From positions 1 to 37,405 of the forward strand of contig NZ_JAFKRG010000051.1 of the NCBI RefSeq assembly GCF_019038415.1: DNA of 37,405 nucleotides. The letters run 5' to 3'. The first letter of the stretch is position 1, and every line of letters begins with the position of its first letter. The translations under genes were made by a program, and so were the position numbers. The stretch is from Synechococcus sp. CCY 9618 (GTDB taxonomy: Bacteria; Cyanobacteriota; Cyanobacteriia; PCC-6307; Cyanobiaceae). Shown here piece after piece: positions 31,485 to 37,405 of this stretch. Under the pieces are notes generated by a model. The model was not told the origin of the DNA and made no database searches. It saw nothing but the letters and a program-made list of their open reading frames with translations.

Positions 31485-32825
31485 ATGACCATCGGCGTTG
31501 GCTTGCTCGGACTGGGCACGGTTGGAGCCGGCGTTGCCGCGATCCTCTCCAGCCCCCAGGGGCGTCACCCGCTGGTGGGGCTGCTGGCCCTGCGCCGCAT
31601 CGCCGTCCGCGACTTTGATCGACCTCGTTCTGTGGAGGTGGACACCGCGCTGCTGGTGACCGATCCGGCCCTTGTGGTGGACGACCCCTCCGTCGACATC
31701 GTGGTGGAGGTGATGGGCGGACTTGAACCAGCCCGCACGCTGATCCTGAGGGCGATCGCGGCCGGGAAGCCGGTGGTCACCGCCAACAAGGCCGTGATCG
31801 CACGCTTCGGAGAGGAGATCGCTGCGGCAGCCGAAAAGCAGGGTGTCTACGTACTCATCGAAGCGGCTGTAGGCGGCGGCATTCCCATCATCGAACCGTT
31901 GAAACAATCCCTTGGTGGGAATCGTATCCATCGGGTGAGCGGCATCATCAACGGCACCACCAACTACATCCTCAGCCGCATGGCCGATGAGGGCGCCGCC
32001 TATGGAGAGGTGCTTGCCGACGCCCAACGACTCGGCTACGCCGAAGCCGATCCCGCCGCAGATGTGCAGGGAGGAGATGCCGCGGACAAGATCGCCATTC
32101 TGGCAGGTCTCGCCTACGGCGGCCCGGTCCCCCGCTCCGGAATCCCCACCGAAGGCATCGACCGGCTCGACGCCAGGGACGTGGCTTACGCGGCCCAGCT
32201 GGGGTTCGTGGTGAAGTTGCTGGCCGTGGCAGAGCGGATCGCCGACGGGGCGCCTTCATCCGATCGACAGGCCGATACGCCCGGCGATGCCGACGGCATC
32301 CAACTTGACGTCCGGGTGCATCCGACACTGGTGCCCAAGCACCATCCGCTGGCCGGCGTCCATGGAGTAAACAACGCCATCCTGGTTGAAGGGGATCCAG
32401 TAGGCCAGGTCATGTTCTACGGACCGGGCGCAGGCGCCGGCCCCACAGCCTCTGCCGTCGTCGCCGACATTCTCAACATCGCGGGAATCCGCCAGGTGGG
32501 CGGCGCCGATGCCGGACTTGACCCTCTGCTCGCGGCAAGCAGCTGGCGAAAGGTGGGGCTGGCCGATGCCTCCCGATCACGTCACCGCAACTACGTGCGC
32601 CTCCAGACCTGCGATCAGGCAGGCGTGATCGGCCGGATCGGCACCTGTTTCGGCACCCGGGGCGTGTCCATCCAATCGATCGTGCAGTTCGAAGCCACTG
32701 ATGGCAGTGCTGAGATCGTGGTGATCACCCACGAGGTTCAGGAATCGAGCTTCCGCGAAGCCCTTGCCGCCATCAGCGCGCTGGAGGAAGTGCAGCGCGT
32801 CGCAGCCTGTCTGCGCACCCTGTGA
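31485..32825 (+). CDS. hom: Homoserine dehydrogenase with ACT domain
   Basis: Hom (446 residues) reduces aspartate semialdehyde to homoserine for threonine and methionine. The N-terminal NAD(P) motif is VGLLGLGTVGAGVA; catalytic-domain blocks are TANKAVIA, EAAVGGGIPII, GIINGTTNYILSRM, EADPAADVQGGDAADKIAILA and the C-terminal ACT domain begins near residue 370 (NYVRLQTCDQAGVIGRIG), giving feedback control. ATG 31485 has a GAGG-type site nine bases upstream; ATG 31476 and TTG 31470 are alternatives. Confidence 0.95.
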   Translation: MTIGVGLLGLGTVGAGVAAILSSPQGRHPLVGLLALRRIAVRDFDRPRSVEVDTALLVTDPALVVDDPSVDIVVEVMGGLEPARTLILRAIAAGKPVVTANKAVIARFGEEIAAAAEKQGVYVLIEAAVGGGIPIIEPLKQSLGGNRIHRVSGIINGTTNYILSRMADEGAAYGEVLADAQRLGYAEADPAADVQGGDAADKIAILAGLAYGGPVPRSGIPTEGIDRLDARDVAYAAQLGFVVKLLAVAERIADGAPSSDRQADTPGDADGIQLDVRVHPTLVPKHHPLAGVHGVNNAILVEGDPVGQVMFYGPGAGAGPTASAVVADILNIAGIRQVGGADAGLDPLLAASSWRKVGLADASRSRHRNYVRLQTCDQAGVIGRIGTCFGTRGVSIQSIVQFEATDGSAEIVVITHEVQESSFREALAAISALEEVQRVAACLRTL

Positions 32826-33362
32826 GCCCATGATCGTTTCCAGGCGGAAACGTGACCATGAGTCCTTCCATCGAGGACCTGAAAAAGCCGGTCAGACTCT
32901 GCAAAAGGGAACCGCGATGGAAACATTCGTGGGGATCGGATGAAGATCTTGTGGCAGGTGCGATCTGGGCACGGCAGCAGGGCAACCGACAAACGAGCAC
33001 CAAGCGCGGCACCCCATCAATCTGCCGCGATCACTGCAGAGCACAGACAAAAACTGCCGTCAGAAATGACTTTTAGCCATATTCACGGAAACTGGCTCCC
33101 TCATGCGTCGACGGCCCCTGATCAAGAACTCCTCATGACTGTCGTGATCGAAAGAAATGGCGGCCCCTAACATGGATCCTGACTTCAAATCCACTGTGAA
33201 TCTGCTTAAGCTGCATCTTGTTGCTGGTGGGAAATATGAACATTTACGCATCAAGCCCGCGCAACAGACGCTAAATCACAGTGATAAGAGTATCTTATGG
33301 GTCTCACATGGCTATGCAGGGCAGATACATTGAGTGCAAGCCAGCTCAATGTCAAGGGCACC
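32826..33362. other. Long gene-poor spacer at the start of the AT-rich segment
   Basis: About 540 bases lie between hom and the first tandem hydrolase. A hairpin, CGTTTCC-AGGC-GGAAACG at 32835-32852, follows the hom stop but has no T-run. A 74-codon frame at 32852-33076 is open but unconvincing. Base composition becomes more AT-rich rightward. An upstream promoter for the hydrolase must lie near the right end; I cannot place it. Confidence 0.45.
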
Positions 33363-34442
33363 ATGCAGTCCATCTCGATCAAGGAAGGCCTAGAAAAGGG
33401 CGGTTACCAGTGCGACCAGTTAATTGCGTCGGTAGAGCCCAAAAGACTCCAATTCAGGGGATTCACCTTTTACTGCAAGGACATACCTGCTGGCATTCCT
33501 GGCACCATCCCCACACTGTTCATCAGCGGGGCGTTTCAGAGCATGCCGTCCTGGCATCGGTTTGCTCGTATCTTCCTAGGAAGAGAAAAGCCGGTCATCA
33601 TGGTGGATCTGCCGGGAACCGGCCGAGCAGACCCATTGCCAACGGAGTATGGCCTGGAATACCTTGCTGATGCCATCAAGTATTTGCTGGATGAACTCGG
33701 CCACCAGAAAGTAGCGATCGTTGCCGCCTCCTATGGAACACCGATTGCCTACAGATTCGCTGAGCTCAATCCATCCATGGTGGAGAGCCTGATCCTTTGT
33801 GGCACGATGAAAGAGGTTCCCAACCACATCCATGGGGATCTGGCCCACTCCTTCAAGACCCTTGAAGAAGGGAACATGGAACAGTTTGCCAATGAATTGC
33901 TTGGGGTTTCCGGCCCTCAGCAGGGTTGTGGGTTGATCTGTACAGACCCCCAGAAGCCTATTGCCAGGAGAAAACTGGCCCACCGGCTTCTTCATTCTCA
34001 GTTGATCAGCATGAATGCAGCTGATCGGGAAAAGTACGTTATCAATACAAAACGACTGCTGAATCACGGCAGGATCGATCTCACGAATCCGCCAAACGTA
34101 AGAACGCTCGTCTTCACAGGCGAGCATGACTGCTTCACACGCCCGGACTTCTGCCGTGAGATTGCCAGTGCGTTTCCACTGGCAACCTTCACGACGATCC
34201 AGCAAGCCGATCACTTGTTTCATATCGAGCAGTTTGACACCACAGCTGAGTTGCTTTTCCGCTTCTCCTACAACGAATCCATCAATGACATTCCCATGCT
34301 GAACAACATTGAAATTGTCCGCAGAAAGATCAAGAAGCGGTTGAGCAGTCGCCCGAGTGATTCCCGATACAAGCTCCGATGCCAAGACAAGTTTATCCAG
34401 AAGTCAATGAACCCTGAGCCTGCCCTGGCCCAACCCTCCTGA
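33363..34442 (+). CDS. Alpha/beta hydrolase, tandem paralogue A
   Basis: A 359-residue alpha/beta hydrolase from the ATG at 33363; the frame is open to 33297. After a short N-terminal domain (RLQFRGFTFYCKD) come PTLFISGAFQSMPSWHRF (oxyanion region), VIMVDLPGTGRADPLP, the nucleophile elbow VAASYGTP (Ser123), the acid Asp256 in FTGEHDCFT, and His284 in QADHLFHIEQF. The elbow is A-x-S-x-G rather than G-x-S-x-G. A basic tail of about 45 residues follows. Codon use is more AT-rich than in core genes. It is a close paralogue of the gene 180 bases downstream. The substrate is unknown. Confidence 0.87.
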   Translation: MQSISIKEGLEKGGYQCDQLIASVEPKRLQFRGFTFYCKDIPAGIPGTIPTLFISGAFQSMPSWHRFARIFLGREKPVIMVDLPGTGRADPLPTEYGLEYLADAIKYLLDELGHQKVAIVAASYGTPIAYRFAELNPSMVESLILCGTMKEVPNHIHGDLAHSFKTLEEGNMEQFANELLGVSGPQQGCGLICTDPQKPIARRKLAHRLLHSQLISMNAADREKYVINTKRLLNHGRIDLTNPPNVRTLVFTGEHDCFTRPDFCREIASAFPLATFTTIQQADHLFHIEQFDTTAELLFRFSYNESINDIPMLNNIEIVRRKIKKRLSSRPSDSRYKLRCQDKFIQKSMNPEPALAQPS

Positions 34443-34468
34443 TTCAGGCAACTATTCGCCTTCACTCA

Positions 34469-34486
34469 GCGGATCTCAAGATCTGC
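34469..34486 (+). other. Hairpin between the tandem hydrolases
   Basis: GCGGATCT-CA-AGATCTGC can form an 8-pair stem (one G-U) with a minimal loop, 27 bases after the stop of the first hydrolase. No T-run follows, so it is not a typical intrinsic terminator; it may slow or stabilise the transcript end. Confidence 0.35.
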
Positions 34487-34622
34487 GGCACTTATCTCCG
34501 GCCGGATGAGTAAGTGACTGCATTGGGCTTTGAGATACGAGGCGTAATGGATAGGATGTATTGGAGTTTCTTCTTAGTGTTGTCTCCGCCTGTTTCAGGA
34601 TGGCGGCAATGCTAAATGAGCC

Positions 34623-35690
34623 ATGACACAGACGTTCAATGCCAAGAAGTCAACGGGACAGAATCAATGTCAATGGATAGCTGCAGATGTCCCAACCAAA
34701 AGGCTTAACTTTCAAGGATTCAATTTCAGTTACAAACATATCAATCCACAAACATCGAAATGCATACCCACTTTGTTCATAAGTGGTGCGTTCCAGTCTA
34801 TGCAGTCATGGTATCGCTTTGCCAAATATTTCCTGACCAAAGGCAAACCGGTGATCATGGTGGATCTTCCTGGAACGGGGGAATCCGATCCTCTCCCCAG
34901 TGATTTCGGCCAGGATTTTTTGGCTGAATCCATCGGGTTGATGCTTGCTGATGCGGGCGTTGAACGTGTCTCCATTGTTGCGGCCTCCTACGGCACACCA
35001 ACAGCCTATTGTTTTTCTCAAGCTTTTCCTGACAAGATTGAACAACTAATCCTGTGCGGAACGATGAGGGAGATTCCAGACTACGTAAAGGAAGGATTAT
35101 CCCATACACTGATCACGCTCAAGTCAGGATCTATCGAAAATTTTGCTAATGAGGTGATGGGTTTCAGCGGGCCCTATCAGGGCCAAGGTTTGCTCTGCAC
35201 CGACTCGTCAAGGAAAATCACCAAACACAAGGTTGCCATGCGCTTGCTCTATGGCCAGCTGATCAGCATGACTCCACTTGAAAAAACCAAGTATGAGCTA
35301 AATACTTTGAGACTTATCAAGCATGGCAGCATGGATCTTAATGACGCGCCAGCTTGCAATACATTAATCTTCACGGGTGAGCATGATTGCTTCACATTGC
35401 CTTGCTATGGCAAGGAAATGGCCAATTTACTGAAGGACTGCACTTTCACCACGGTCAGACATGCTGATCATCTCGTTCACATTGAGCAGTTTAATACTAC
35501 AGCAGAGCTTATTTACCATTTTTCCTATGGTATTGCAATCAACAGTATCTCCAATTTGAATCCGATCGAACGCTTAGGAACACGTCACAAGTTGCGTGAC
35601 CCTCAATTCAGCTCAGCACCCCATCCATTCGGAGCGGTTTCCGACAATTCATCCTTCCACCACCCTTCATGTGCTCCACTCGCCGCCTAA
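34623..35690 (+). CDS. Alpha/beta hydrolase, tandem paralogue B
   Basis: A 355-residue paralogue of the preceding gene, with roughly half or more of the residues identical by eye across residues 26-290. The same core is present: PTLFISGAFQSMQSWYRF, VIMVDLPGTGESDPLP, VAASYGTP (Ser122), FTGEHDCFT (Asp255) and HADHLVHIEQF (His283). The C-terminal tail is different, rich in His, Ser and Pro. Composition is the most AT-rich of the window's complete genes. A 180-base spacer upstream may give it its own promoter. The N-terminal motif KRLNFQGFNFSYKHI, shared in form with paralogue A, seems characteristic of this subfamily. Confidence 0.87.
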   Translation: MTQTFNAKKSTGQNQCQWIAADVPTKRLNFQGFNFSYKHINPQTSKCIPTLFISGAFQSMQSWYRFAKYFLTKGKPVIMVDLPGTGESDPLPSDFGQDFLAESIGLMLADAGVERVSIVAASYGTPTAYCFSQAFPDKIEQLILCGTMREIPDYVKEGLSHTLITLKSGSIENFANEVMGFSGPYQGQGLLCTDSSRKITKHKVAMRLLYGQLISMTPLEKTKYELNTLRLIKHGSMDLNDAPACNTLIFTGEHDCFTLPCYGKEMANLLKDCTFTTVRHADHLVHIEQFNTTAELIYHFSYGIAINSISNLNPIERLGTRHKLRDPQFSSAPHPFGAVSDNSSFHHPSCAPLAA

Positions 35691-35998: not shown

Positions 35999-37405
35999 CT
36001 ATGCGGTGACTGGCCAATCGTTCCATCCTTCGTCTGTAATTGTGCAGGCCTTCGCTGGTGAGGTATGGAGCCAGAGAAGGCTGCAGAGACAGGCAAAAAG
36101 GAGCACAGAAAGGAGGCGGAGCACCCTCAGGATCTTCTCGGCACACATCACCAGGAAACTCATGGAGATTGAGGTTGCAGCGCCGTGGGTAAGCCTCGCC
36201 ATGATCAGCTTCAGTGAATACTTTCGCTTGCCCGAGCCAAAGACTCCCTCCACTTCATTCCTCCGGCGCTGATCCGCACTGAGCTGTTGCTTGTGAGCTG
36301 CATTGATCTCTGCGTTTTTAGGAGGCCTTCCCAATCGTTTGCCCGAGAGACGAATTCCTGCTATCGCACAGAAGTGCCTGTTCTTAGCATTGATGTAAAT
36401 GCGATCAGCGCATATTCGCTCAGGGTAGCAACCATTGTCCTGCTTATACTTCTCGGCCTGAGCGATCAGATCCTCGCCTTCGTTGTAAGCATCCCAGCTG
36501 AGCCGATGCAGGAACGCAAATCCATTGCTAACAGAAATACTGATCTTGGCTCCGAATTCGACAGCAGCCCTTGCCTTTCCGCGCACAATGGGCCGTACCT
36601 GTCGCTGCACCAAATTGACAAGGCGATCAGGGATGCTCCTGGTCTTACTGTGGAGCAGAATGGTTTGCTGCCGGTGTAGCTCACTGCAGGCGAGGAGCTT
36701 ATGCCACCAATGCCTCCTCAGGGCTGAAAGGCATGCCCCATCAGCGATCAGGGCATCAATGGCTTCCAGATTGCGCTGCAGATAGTCAAGCTGCCGCCTC
36801 ACCGCAGCCTTGAGTCTTCTCCGTCGTGGTCTTTTCTGCTTGGCGACATTGAGAAAGTGTGCACGCGCTTTGCCGCGGTCATAACGAGGGCGATGCGCGC
36901 CATAACCGTTGGATTGCTTGCAGAGGTCATCAATCACTCTCTCTGTCGACTGCCTCGCCTCATTCAAAAGCTTGAGATCCGTTGGGTAGGTGATATCGGC
37001 AGGCGTGCAAGAGGCATCAATACTGAGCGTGCCCCAATTCTTCCCTTCTGGCCAGTCTGCGGGTTTGACCAGGCTATCGAGCAAGAGCTGATCGCCGTTG
37101 TCTTTATCATCTCCGCTTGAATCGTCATGGGTCTGAGCAGCGGCAGCCTCAATCAACTTCTCCTTATCTCGCTGAACCACAAGCTCTTTGATGTGCCTCA
37201 GGTCTTCATCTGAGAAACGCTTGCGGAAATGAACCATCATTGATGGATCAAACGGCACCTTGCTGGAGTAACCGGAAAATCCAAGGAAGAACTGCATGTA
37301 GGGATTCTCCTGTGACGTGACCCCCATCAGTGGTCCAGTTCCTATGAGAGCTGGTGGGGTGATCAGGCCGCTTTCCATTGCTGGAGGACTTCCATAGGCG
37401 TACGC
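35999..37405 (-). CDS. DDE transposase, IS5/IS1182-type (partial)
   Basis: The frame is open from the window edge; the first visible ATG (37378) is probably not the start, since about 70-90 N-terminal residues of this family should come before. ENPYMQFFLGF and PFDPSMMVHFRKRF belong to the DUF772-type N-terminal domain. The DDE domain has the first Asp in SIDASCTPADI, the second in ICADRIYINAKNR, and the Glu in RRNEVEGVFGSGKRKY. An Arg/Lys-rich insertion (KQKRPRRRRLKAAVRRQ) lies between. The visible sequence has no stop or frameshift, but the stretch before ENPY aligns poorly with my memory of the family, so N-terminal damage is possible. The host gene base composition is AT-richer than core. 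Confidence 0.88.
   Translation of the reverse strand, partial: AYAYGSPPAMESGLITPPALIGTGPLMGVTSQENPYMQFFLGFSGYSSKVPFDPSMMVHFRKRFSDEDLRHIKELVVQRDKEKLIEAAAAQTHDDSSGDDKDNGDQLLLDSLVKPADWPEGKNWGTLSIDASCTPADITYPTDLKLLNEARQSTERVIDDLCKQSNGYGAHRPRYDRGKARAHFLNVAKQKRPRRRRLKAAVRRQLDYLQRNLEAIDALIADGACLSALRRHWWHKLLACSELHRQQTILLHSKTRSIPDRLVNLVQRQVRPIVRGKARAAVEFGAKISISVSNGFAFLHRLSWDAYNEGEDLIAQAEKYKQDNGCYPERICADRIYINAKNRHFCAIAGIRLSGKRLGRPPKNAEINAAHKQQLSADQRRRNEVEGVFGSGKRKYSLKLIMARLTHGAATSISMSFLVMCAEKILRVLRLLSVLLFACLCSLLWLHTSPAKACTITDEGWNDWPVTA

Follow-up and report, generated by a model that had tools for sequence, protein, structure and literature searches.

The window analyzed here, that is, the whole 37,405-nt stretch of DNA, ends together with its contig (C51) at position 37405 and belongs to the freshwater picocyanobacterium Synechococcus sp. 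CCY 9618, whose assembly comprises 2,925,826 bases in 133 contigs. Near its right end we found two adjoining alpha/beta hydrolase genes, hyd1 (33363..34442, + strand, 359 aa) and hyd2 (34623..35690, + strand, 355 aa), arranged head to tail with intact open reading frames. The longest reading frame of hyd1 starts at 33297; alignment with the ortholog from Synechococcus sp. CCY 0621 favours the start at 33363, and an AAGGG stretch lies immediately 5' of the latter. Both proteins match Abhydrolase_1 (Pfam PF00561) at 83.2 and 65.5 bits, with a gathering cut-off of 25.8. The two proteins are 52% identical, and a search with hyd2 detected hyd1 with an E-value of 6.7e-111 at 53% identity. The motifs SGAFQSM, DLPGTG, AASYG, GEHDCFT and ADHL/ADHLVHIEQF are common to both, a resemblance far beyond chance. 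This agrees with a preliminary description of the window, which had reported tandem paralogous hydrolases with these motifs.

The same description had assigned a Ser-Asp-His triad to both proteins, and the corresponding alignment positions are indeed conserved. In hyd1, the putative nucleophile, as judged from the fold, is Ser123 in A-A-S-Y-G (33729..33731, + strand), the putative acid is Asp256 in G-E-H-D-C-F-T (34128..34130, +) and the putative base is His284 in A-D-H-L (34212..34214, +), all three invariant in a 9-row alignment. In hyd2, Ser122 (34986..34988, +), Asp255 (35385..35387, +) and His283 (35469..35471, +) may play the equivalent roles. Ser, Asp and His are invariant at these positions in all four cyanobacterial proteins, i.e. 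hyd1 and hyd2 of two genomes.

On the left, the pair follows a gene (31485..32825, + strand) that we take from its sequence to be hom, encoding homoserine dehydrogenase, the conserved left neighbor of the island described below. On the right lies an IS5-family transposase gene (35999..37378, − strand) with a DDE domain, which matches NF033578 at 296.9 bits (cut-off 275), so the insertion sequence noticed earlier is real. The GC content in the window is 0.52 for hyd1, 0.46 for hyd2 and 0.66 for hom, and across both genomes it is 0.46-0.53 for the four hydrolase genes and 0.66-0.67 for hom. The pair had been placed in AT-rich DNA, which given these values holds only relative to the neighbors and not in absolute terms.

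In CCY 0621 (genome G041), hyd1 and hyd2 likewise follow hom as a pair and in this order. Its hyd1 is 80% identical to that of the window strain, and its hyd2 is 60% identical over the length and 63% over the matched part. Each copy is nearer to its ortholog than to its neighbor (tree forks 99/97 and 100/99), indicating that the duplication predates the split of the two strains. Between orthologs, dN/dS was 0.11 for hyd1, 0.14 for hyd2 and 0.08 for hom; with dS at 1.1 for hyd1 and 2.4 for hyd2, the hyd2 ratio is rough. Both copies are under constraint. The preliminary description had further deduced specialization from the different tails. Duplication stands and the tails do differ, but only 23 of 47 and 13 of 39 aligned C-terminal positions are identical between orthologs, and tails so poorly conserved are poor evidence of specialization. 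Retention of both copies might reflect two different acceptors, or two different chain lengths, but this is a guess.

Searches at E ≤ 1e-20 recovered the pair from 2 of 42 genomes in the genus, 2 of 400 in the family and 2 of 386 in the phylum, so hyd1 and hyd2 are not core genes. A looser search of 197 relatives gave matches in 51, and beyond the two pair genomes these were only distant hydrolases (best E 8.3e-10). Scans of broad contig and viral contig collections added nothing beyond the CCY 0621 locus. A broad-family search of the phylum (E ≤ 1e-15) reached 15 further genomes of 386; among 8 of these loci that we inspected, the four that could be read cleanly all lack the loop signature described below. 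Three phage records also match, at 27-31% identity.

Since the pair lies directly 3' of hom in both genomes and gives weak matches to MetX (NF006449; 21.9 and 13.6 bits), we considered that it might encode a homoserine O-acyltransferase-like enzyme partnered with the adjacent hom. The MetX cut-off of 296 bits is missed by far, however, and the GC content of the pair is unlike that of hom. In addition, 38 of the 42 genus genomes gave a hom match (E ≤ 1e-50) and 2 of 42 gave the pair, so that the position looks less like a pathway than like a site of insertion. We regard such a partnership as very unlikely.

In six relatives (G025, G026, G004, G020, G018 and G009) we found no open reading frame matching either hydrolase to the right of hom; instead, among the matches listed, a conserved gene follows hom after about 0.1 to 1.9 kb, which by eye we take to encode a substrate-binding protein. 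In CCY 0621 the distance from hom to this gene is 7.4 kb, about 5.5 kb longer than in G004, and the interval holds the pair, a convergent gene for a secreted-type protein and a membrane protein gene. The substrate-binding gene of the window strain (83% identical) is located on another contig, C52. To its left, C52 carries transposase-like reading frames (presumably IS21-type and others), a protein C-terminally similar to the secreted-type one of CCY 0621, and a membrane protein of the HpsJ-like type, as in CCY 0621. The join between C51 and C52 is suggested by the gene order in CCY 0621. Taken together, the occurrence of the pair in only two genomes and the site without it in six relatives imply that hyd1 and hyd2 form an acquired island with an old duplication inside.

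Several further features of this region were observed. The ends of C51 and C52 have 93 identical bases in inverted orientation (window 37313-37405 and L077 2-94), probably the end of a mobile element that broke the assembly. The secreted-type gene is convergent in both genomes (L077 2923-3705 and L023 12416-13228, both − strand), and its product ends in PGPLP.LGAGAAFGYSRRLRKRVKG in both, an ending that resembles a PEP-CTERM-like sorting signal; the protein had no match among Pfam or NCBIfam models. The adjoining membrane protein (L077 4140-4967 and L023 13464-14402, both + strand) gives sub-cut-off matches to HpsJ-like, cyanoexosortase-associated families, and CCY 0621 has a second, diverged relative of it close by (L023 15291-16526). 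Among the translated reading frames to the right of the CCY 0621 pair we recognized no transposase by eye, so the IS5-family element is probably incidental to the pair. Past the insertion sequence, among the C52 reading frames, part of which were run against families, no biosynthetic partner was recognized, in line with the earlier remark that no pathway partner was in view.

The NCBIfam families listed for hyd1 and hyd2 all stay below their cut-offs, which is consistent with the proposal that the subfamily lies outside characterized families. Sub-cut-off matches to HsaD and BphD raised the idea that the pair might hydrolyze a C-C bond in a ring-cleavage product, as HsaD/BphD/MhpC-like enzymes do, and HsaD chains were among the top Foldseek matches. 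The HsaD model, however, has a cut-off of 400 bits and scores only 38.6 and 28.5, no ring-cleavage genes were recognized beside the pair, and the structure model behind the Foldseek matches is unreliable. The predicted models of hyd1 and hyd2, made with four input sequences, were poor (pLDDT 46.5 and 45.6), and because Foldseek was run on one such model, where it returned mixed hydrolases, its result carries no weight. C-C bond hydrolysis is thus unlikely in our view. Weak profile and fold matches also exist to haloalkane and fluoroacetate dehalogenases, the haloalkane dehalogenase model giving 27 bits against 241. These dehalogenases use an Asp nucleophile, which is contradicted by the Ser at the nucleophile position of all four cyanobacterial proteins, and we consider this activity hardly conceivable.

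The closest relatives found outside cyanobacteria, in a plasmid collection, came from Streptomyces, the best with 35.6% identity over 85% of hyd1 (E 2e-46). Ten records from Streptomyces and Streptantibioticus were listed for hyd1, among them two from one S. cattleyicolor strain, and we opened four loci of this Streptomyces type, the best-scoring among the records listed. The gene order is acyl carrier protein (ACP), ketosynthase (KS) and hydrolase in both NBC_01237 and BHT-5-2; SDR, KS III, ACP and hydrolase in S. cattleyicolor; and SDR, hydrolase and SDR in S. aurantiacus, where one SDR has a sub-cut-off match to a thioester reductase domain. Hence, ACP and KS genes are directly upstream of the hydrolase in three of the four loci. 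The small ACP, KS and hydrolase sets of these three (L031, L032 and L076) resemble unassigned fatty-acid or polyketide mini-clusters. Relatives from Acinetobacter (L029 9926-11221) and Pseudomonas (L030 7947-9170) are longer at the C-terminus by about 100 residues, a region with no Pfam match, and both adjoin a glutamate-5-semialdehyde dehydrogenase gene.

We collected 41 proteins for trees and a motif table, and dropped 7 before the first tree, 11 before the second and 5 before the motif table. Excluded were fragments or wrong frames (cy_L005, L011, L013, L017 and L018), proteins with Asp at the elbow (L016 and L019) and long branches (L008, AcoC, Thermomicrob and PhaZ). All 10 family rows carry the loop [SG]GA[FL]Q, and none of the other 26 does (one has a gap at this place). 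The family rows also formed a common clade with support of 95/92 in the first tree and 93/89, under the starring threshold, in the second. This loop and clade place the pair in an unnamed subfamily with the Streptomyces-type relatives, which extends beyond cyanobacteria, spanning Streptomyces, gammaproteobacteria and two picocyanobacteria. Literature searches on PA4008, RhlA in cyanobacteria, Streptomyces cattleya ACP clusters and picocyanobacterial thioesterases found no publication on the subfamily by title or abstract start.

Our first, tentative choice for the function of the pair (probability roughly 0.38) is acyl-thioester hydrolysis or acyl transfer, with fatty acid synthesis as the source of substrate. 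Almost as likely is the reading that they are ordinary esterases or lactonases for small molecules, from the broad PcaD-like/esterase groups, used for scavenging or detoxification. Placement relative to two known groups bears on this choice. PhaG and RhlA are 3-hydroxyacyl-ACP enzymes for PHA and surfactant precursors, and PcaD is the 3-oxoadipate enol-lactonase (TIGR02427).

A tree of hydrolase families had been suggested in the preliminary description. Two maximum-likelihood trees placed the ten-row family and PhaG/RhlA together, apart from the other hydrolases sampled (20 and 16, respectively), with support of 98/89 and 98/90, which speaks against the esterase reading; PhaG/RhlA occupy a long branch, and the pair lies outside their clade in both trees, as a sister group at best. 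A tree grouping the family with PcaD was not rejected by the AU test (p-AU 0.096), which favors the esterase reading. In a search from the PhaG/RhlA side, family members were 4 of the best 5 proteins. The ten-row family profile scored 140.5 against PhaG/RhlA, above eight random ten-protein control profiles (105.5-120.2) and three fixed ones (106.4-119.2). The same profile, however, scored still higher against an unnamed pair (179.5), PcaD (166.7) and two other groups. With a profile from the four cyanobacterial proteins, PhaG/RhlA reached 16-24 bits, under 22 control hydrolases, and PcaD 61.1; in the profile comparison from these four, PhaG/RhlA were the lowest of 11 groups, at 73.4 versus 120.8 for PcaD. 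Single-protein scores to PhaG/RhlA overlap between the family (41.5-94.1) and others (34.8-72.9). RhlA, whose solved structure is 8ik2, was absent from the best 60 of 312 PDB matches to the profile of the pair.

Motifs were also tabulated. All 14 rows from the family and PhaG/RhlA show the oxyanion-loop pattern G-[AS]-[FL], and none of the remaining 22 in the table does (one of these is gapped at the loop). A missing loop His and a D-[LQ]-P motif are likewise common to the family and PhaG/RhlA, yet they are present in some controls. The pair lacks the NG[AS]LAT.ASF loop of PhaG/RhlA (read from 4 rows) and has SGAFQSM.SW instead. Kinship of the subfamily with PhaG/RhlA is thus suggestive only, and the pair itself appears not to be a member of that group.

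The esterase reading gains further from the raw profile scores just given, in which PcaD exceeds PhaG/RhlA, and from the top NCBIfam models, which are PcaD types (hyd1 75.9 and 63.9 bits), though far under cut-off. PHROG 789, 'esterase/lipase', matches both proteins (E 1.7e-17 and 5.7e-13), and among proteins of solved structure, the best sequence match to hyd2 is an esterase (E 3e-9). On the other hand, TIGR02427 itself gives only 63.6 and 42.2 bits against a cut-off of 255.85, no catabolic genes were recognized in the island, and the oxyanion loop is unlike both PcaD rows.

The acyl-thioester reading draws on the Streptomyces-type relatives, since ACP and KS genes beside three of the four opened loci fit with thioester or acyl-transfer chemistry. 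The preliminary description had named such chemistry as an example; it agrees with these relatives, while the raw scores favor PcaD-like esterases. Overall, what that description observed was confirmed, and its interpretation is partly supported. Beside the cyanobacterial pair itself, no ACP or KS gene was recognized, which counts against the acyl-thioester reading, as do the semialdehyde dehydrogenase neighbors of the Acinetobacter and Pseudomonas relatives. Among the 42 genus genomes searched, a single PF00109 ketosynthase match (E ≤ 1e-10) and a single PF00550 carrier-protein match (E ≤ 1e-4) turned up in the window genome and likewise in CCY 0621, and the two genes adjoin in both (contigs C19 and C16, respectively), an arrangement that seems to be that of ordinary fatty acid synthesis. 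Should the enzymes depend on ACP, the one ACP detected in the host would have to supply them, with an ordinary fatty acyl- or 3-hydroxyacyl-ACP as donor.

We therefore propose the following mode of action for the acyl-thioester reading. The pair would be two copies, now diverged, from a subfamily of serine alpha/beta hydrolases acting on acyl thioesters, in which the serine takes the acyl group from ACP or CoA to form an acyl-enzyme, with the [SG]-G-A-[FL]-Q loop possibly lining the oxyanion hole. The acyl group may then be passed to water, as by a thioesterase, or to a hydroxyl acceptor, as by an acyltransferase; RhlA passes its acyl group to a hydroxyl acceptor. The outcome would be either a free fatty or hydroxy fatty acid, or an ester lipid. 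A more specific version, a two-enzyme acyltransferase system of picocyanobacteria that draws 3-hydroxyacyl-ACP away from normal fatty acid synthesis to make an undescribed ester-linked lipid or surfactant, with a different acceptor for each copy, seems improbable. If the acyl-thioester reading is true, the pair marks out a subfamily for which NCBIfam has no model and which may be kin to RhlA and PhaG, and the single carrier protein and single PF00109 ketosynthase detected in the host make it a compact test case. If the proteins are ordinary esterases, the pair is of little importance.

We compared the pair with known systems. With PhaG/RhlA, the Ser, Asp and His align, the G-[AS]-[FL] loop is common and the two trees give a sister group; however, the 264-column profile alignment over core and cap is only 16% identical, and the elbow is SWGG in PhaG/RhlA and SYGT in the pair. 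A PhaG context would also lead one to expect a PHA synthase, whereas the class III form (TIGR01836, E ≤ 0.001) was found in neither of the two pair genomes, with control matches in 1 of 14. PcaD has the same fold as the pair and its types supply the top NCBIfam models, but the scores are far under cut-off, the oxyanion loop differs in both PcaD rows and no pca genes were recognized nearby. The Streptomyces-type alpha/beta fold hydrolases (WP_326683019.1 beside ACP/KS and WP_269246430.1 between two SDRs) differ from the pair in their 26-36% identity and in adjoining ACP, KS and SDR genes, none of which was recognized around the cyanobacterial pair, but they have the same [SG]GA[FL]Q loop, serine elbow and clade. 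By this comparison, the pair represents a new subfamily without a curated NCBIfam model, but a known sort of system.
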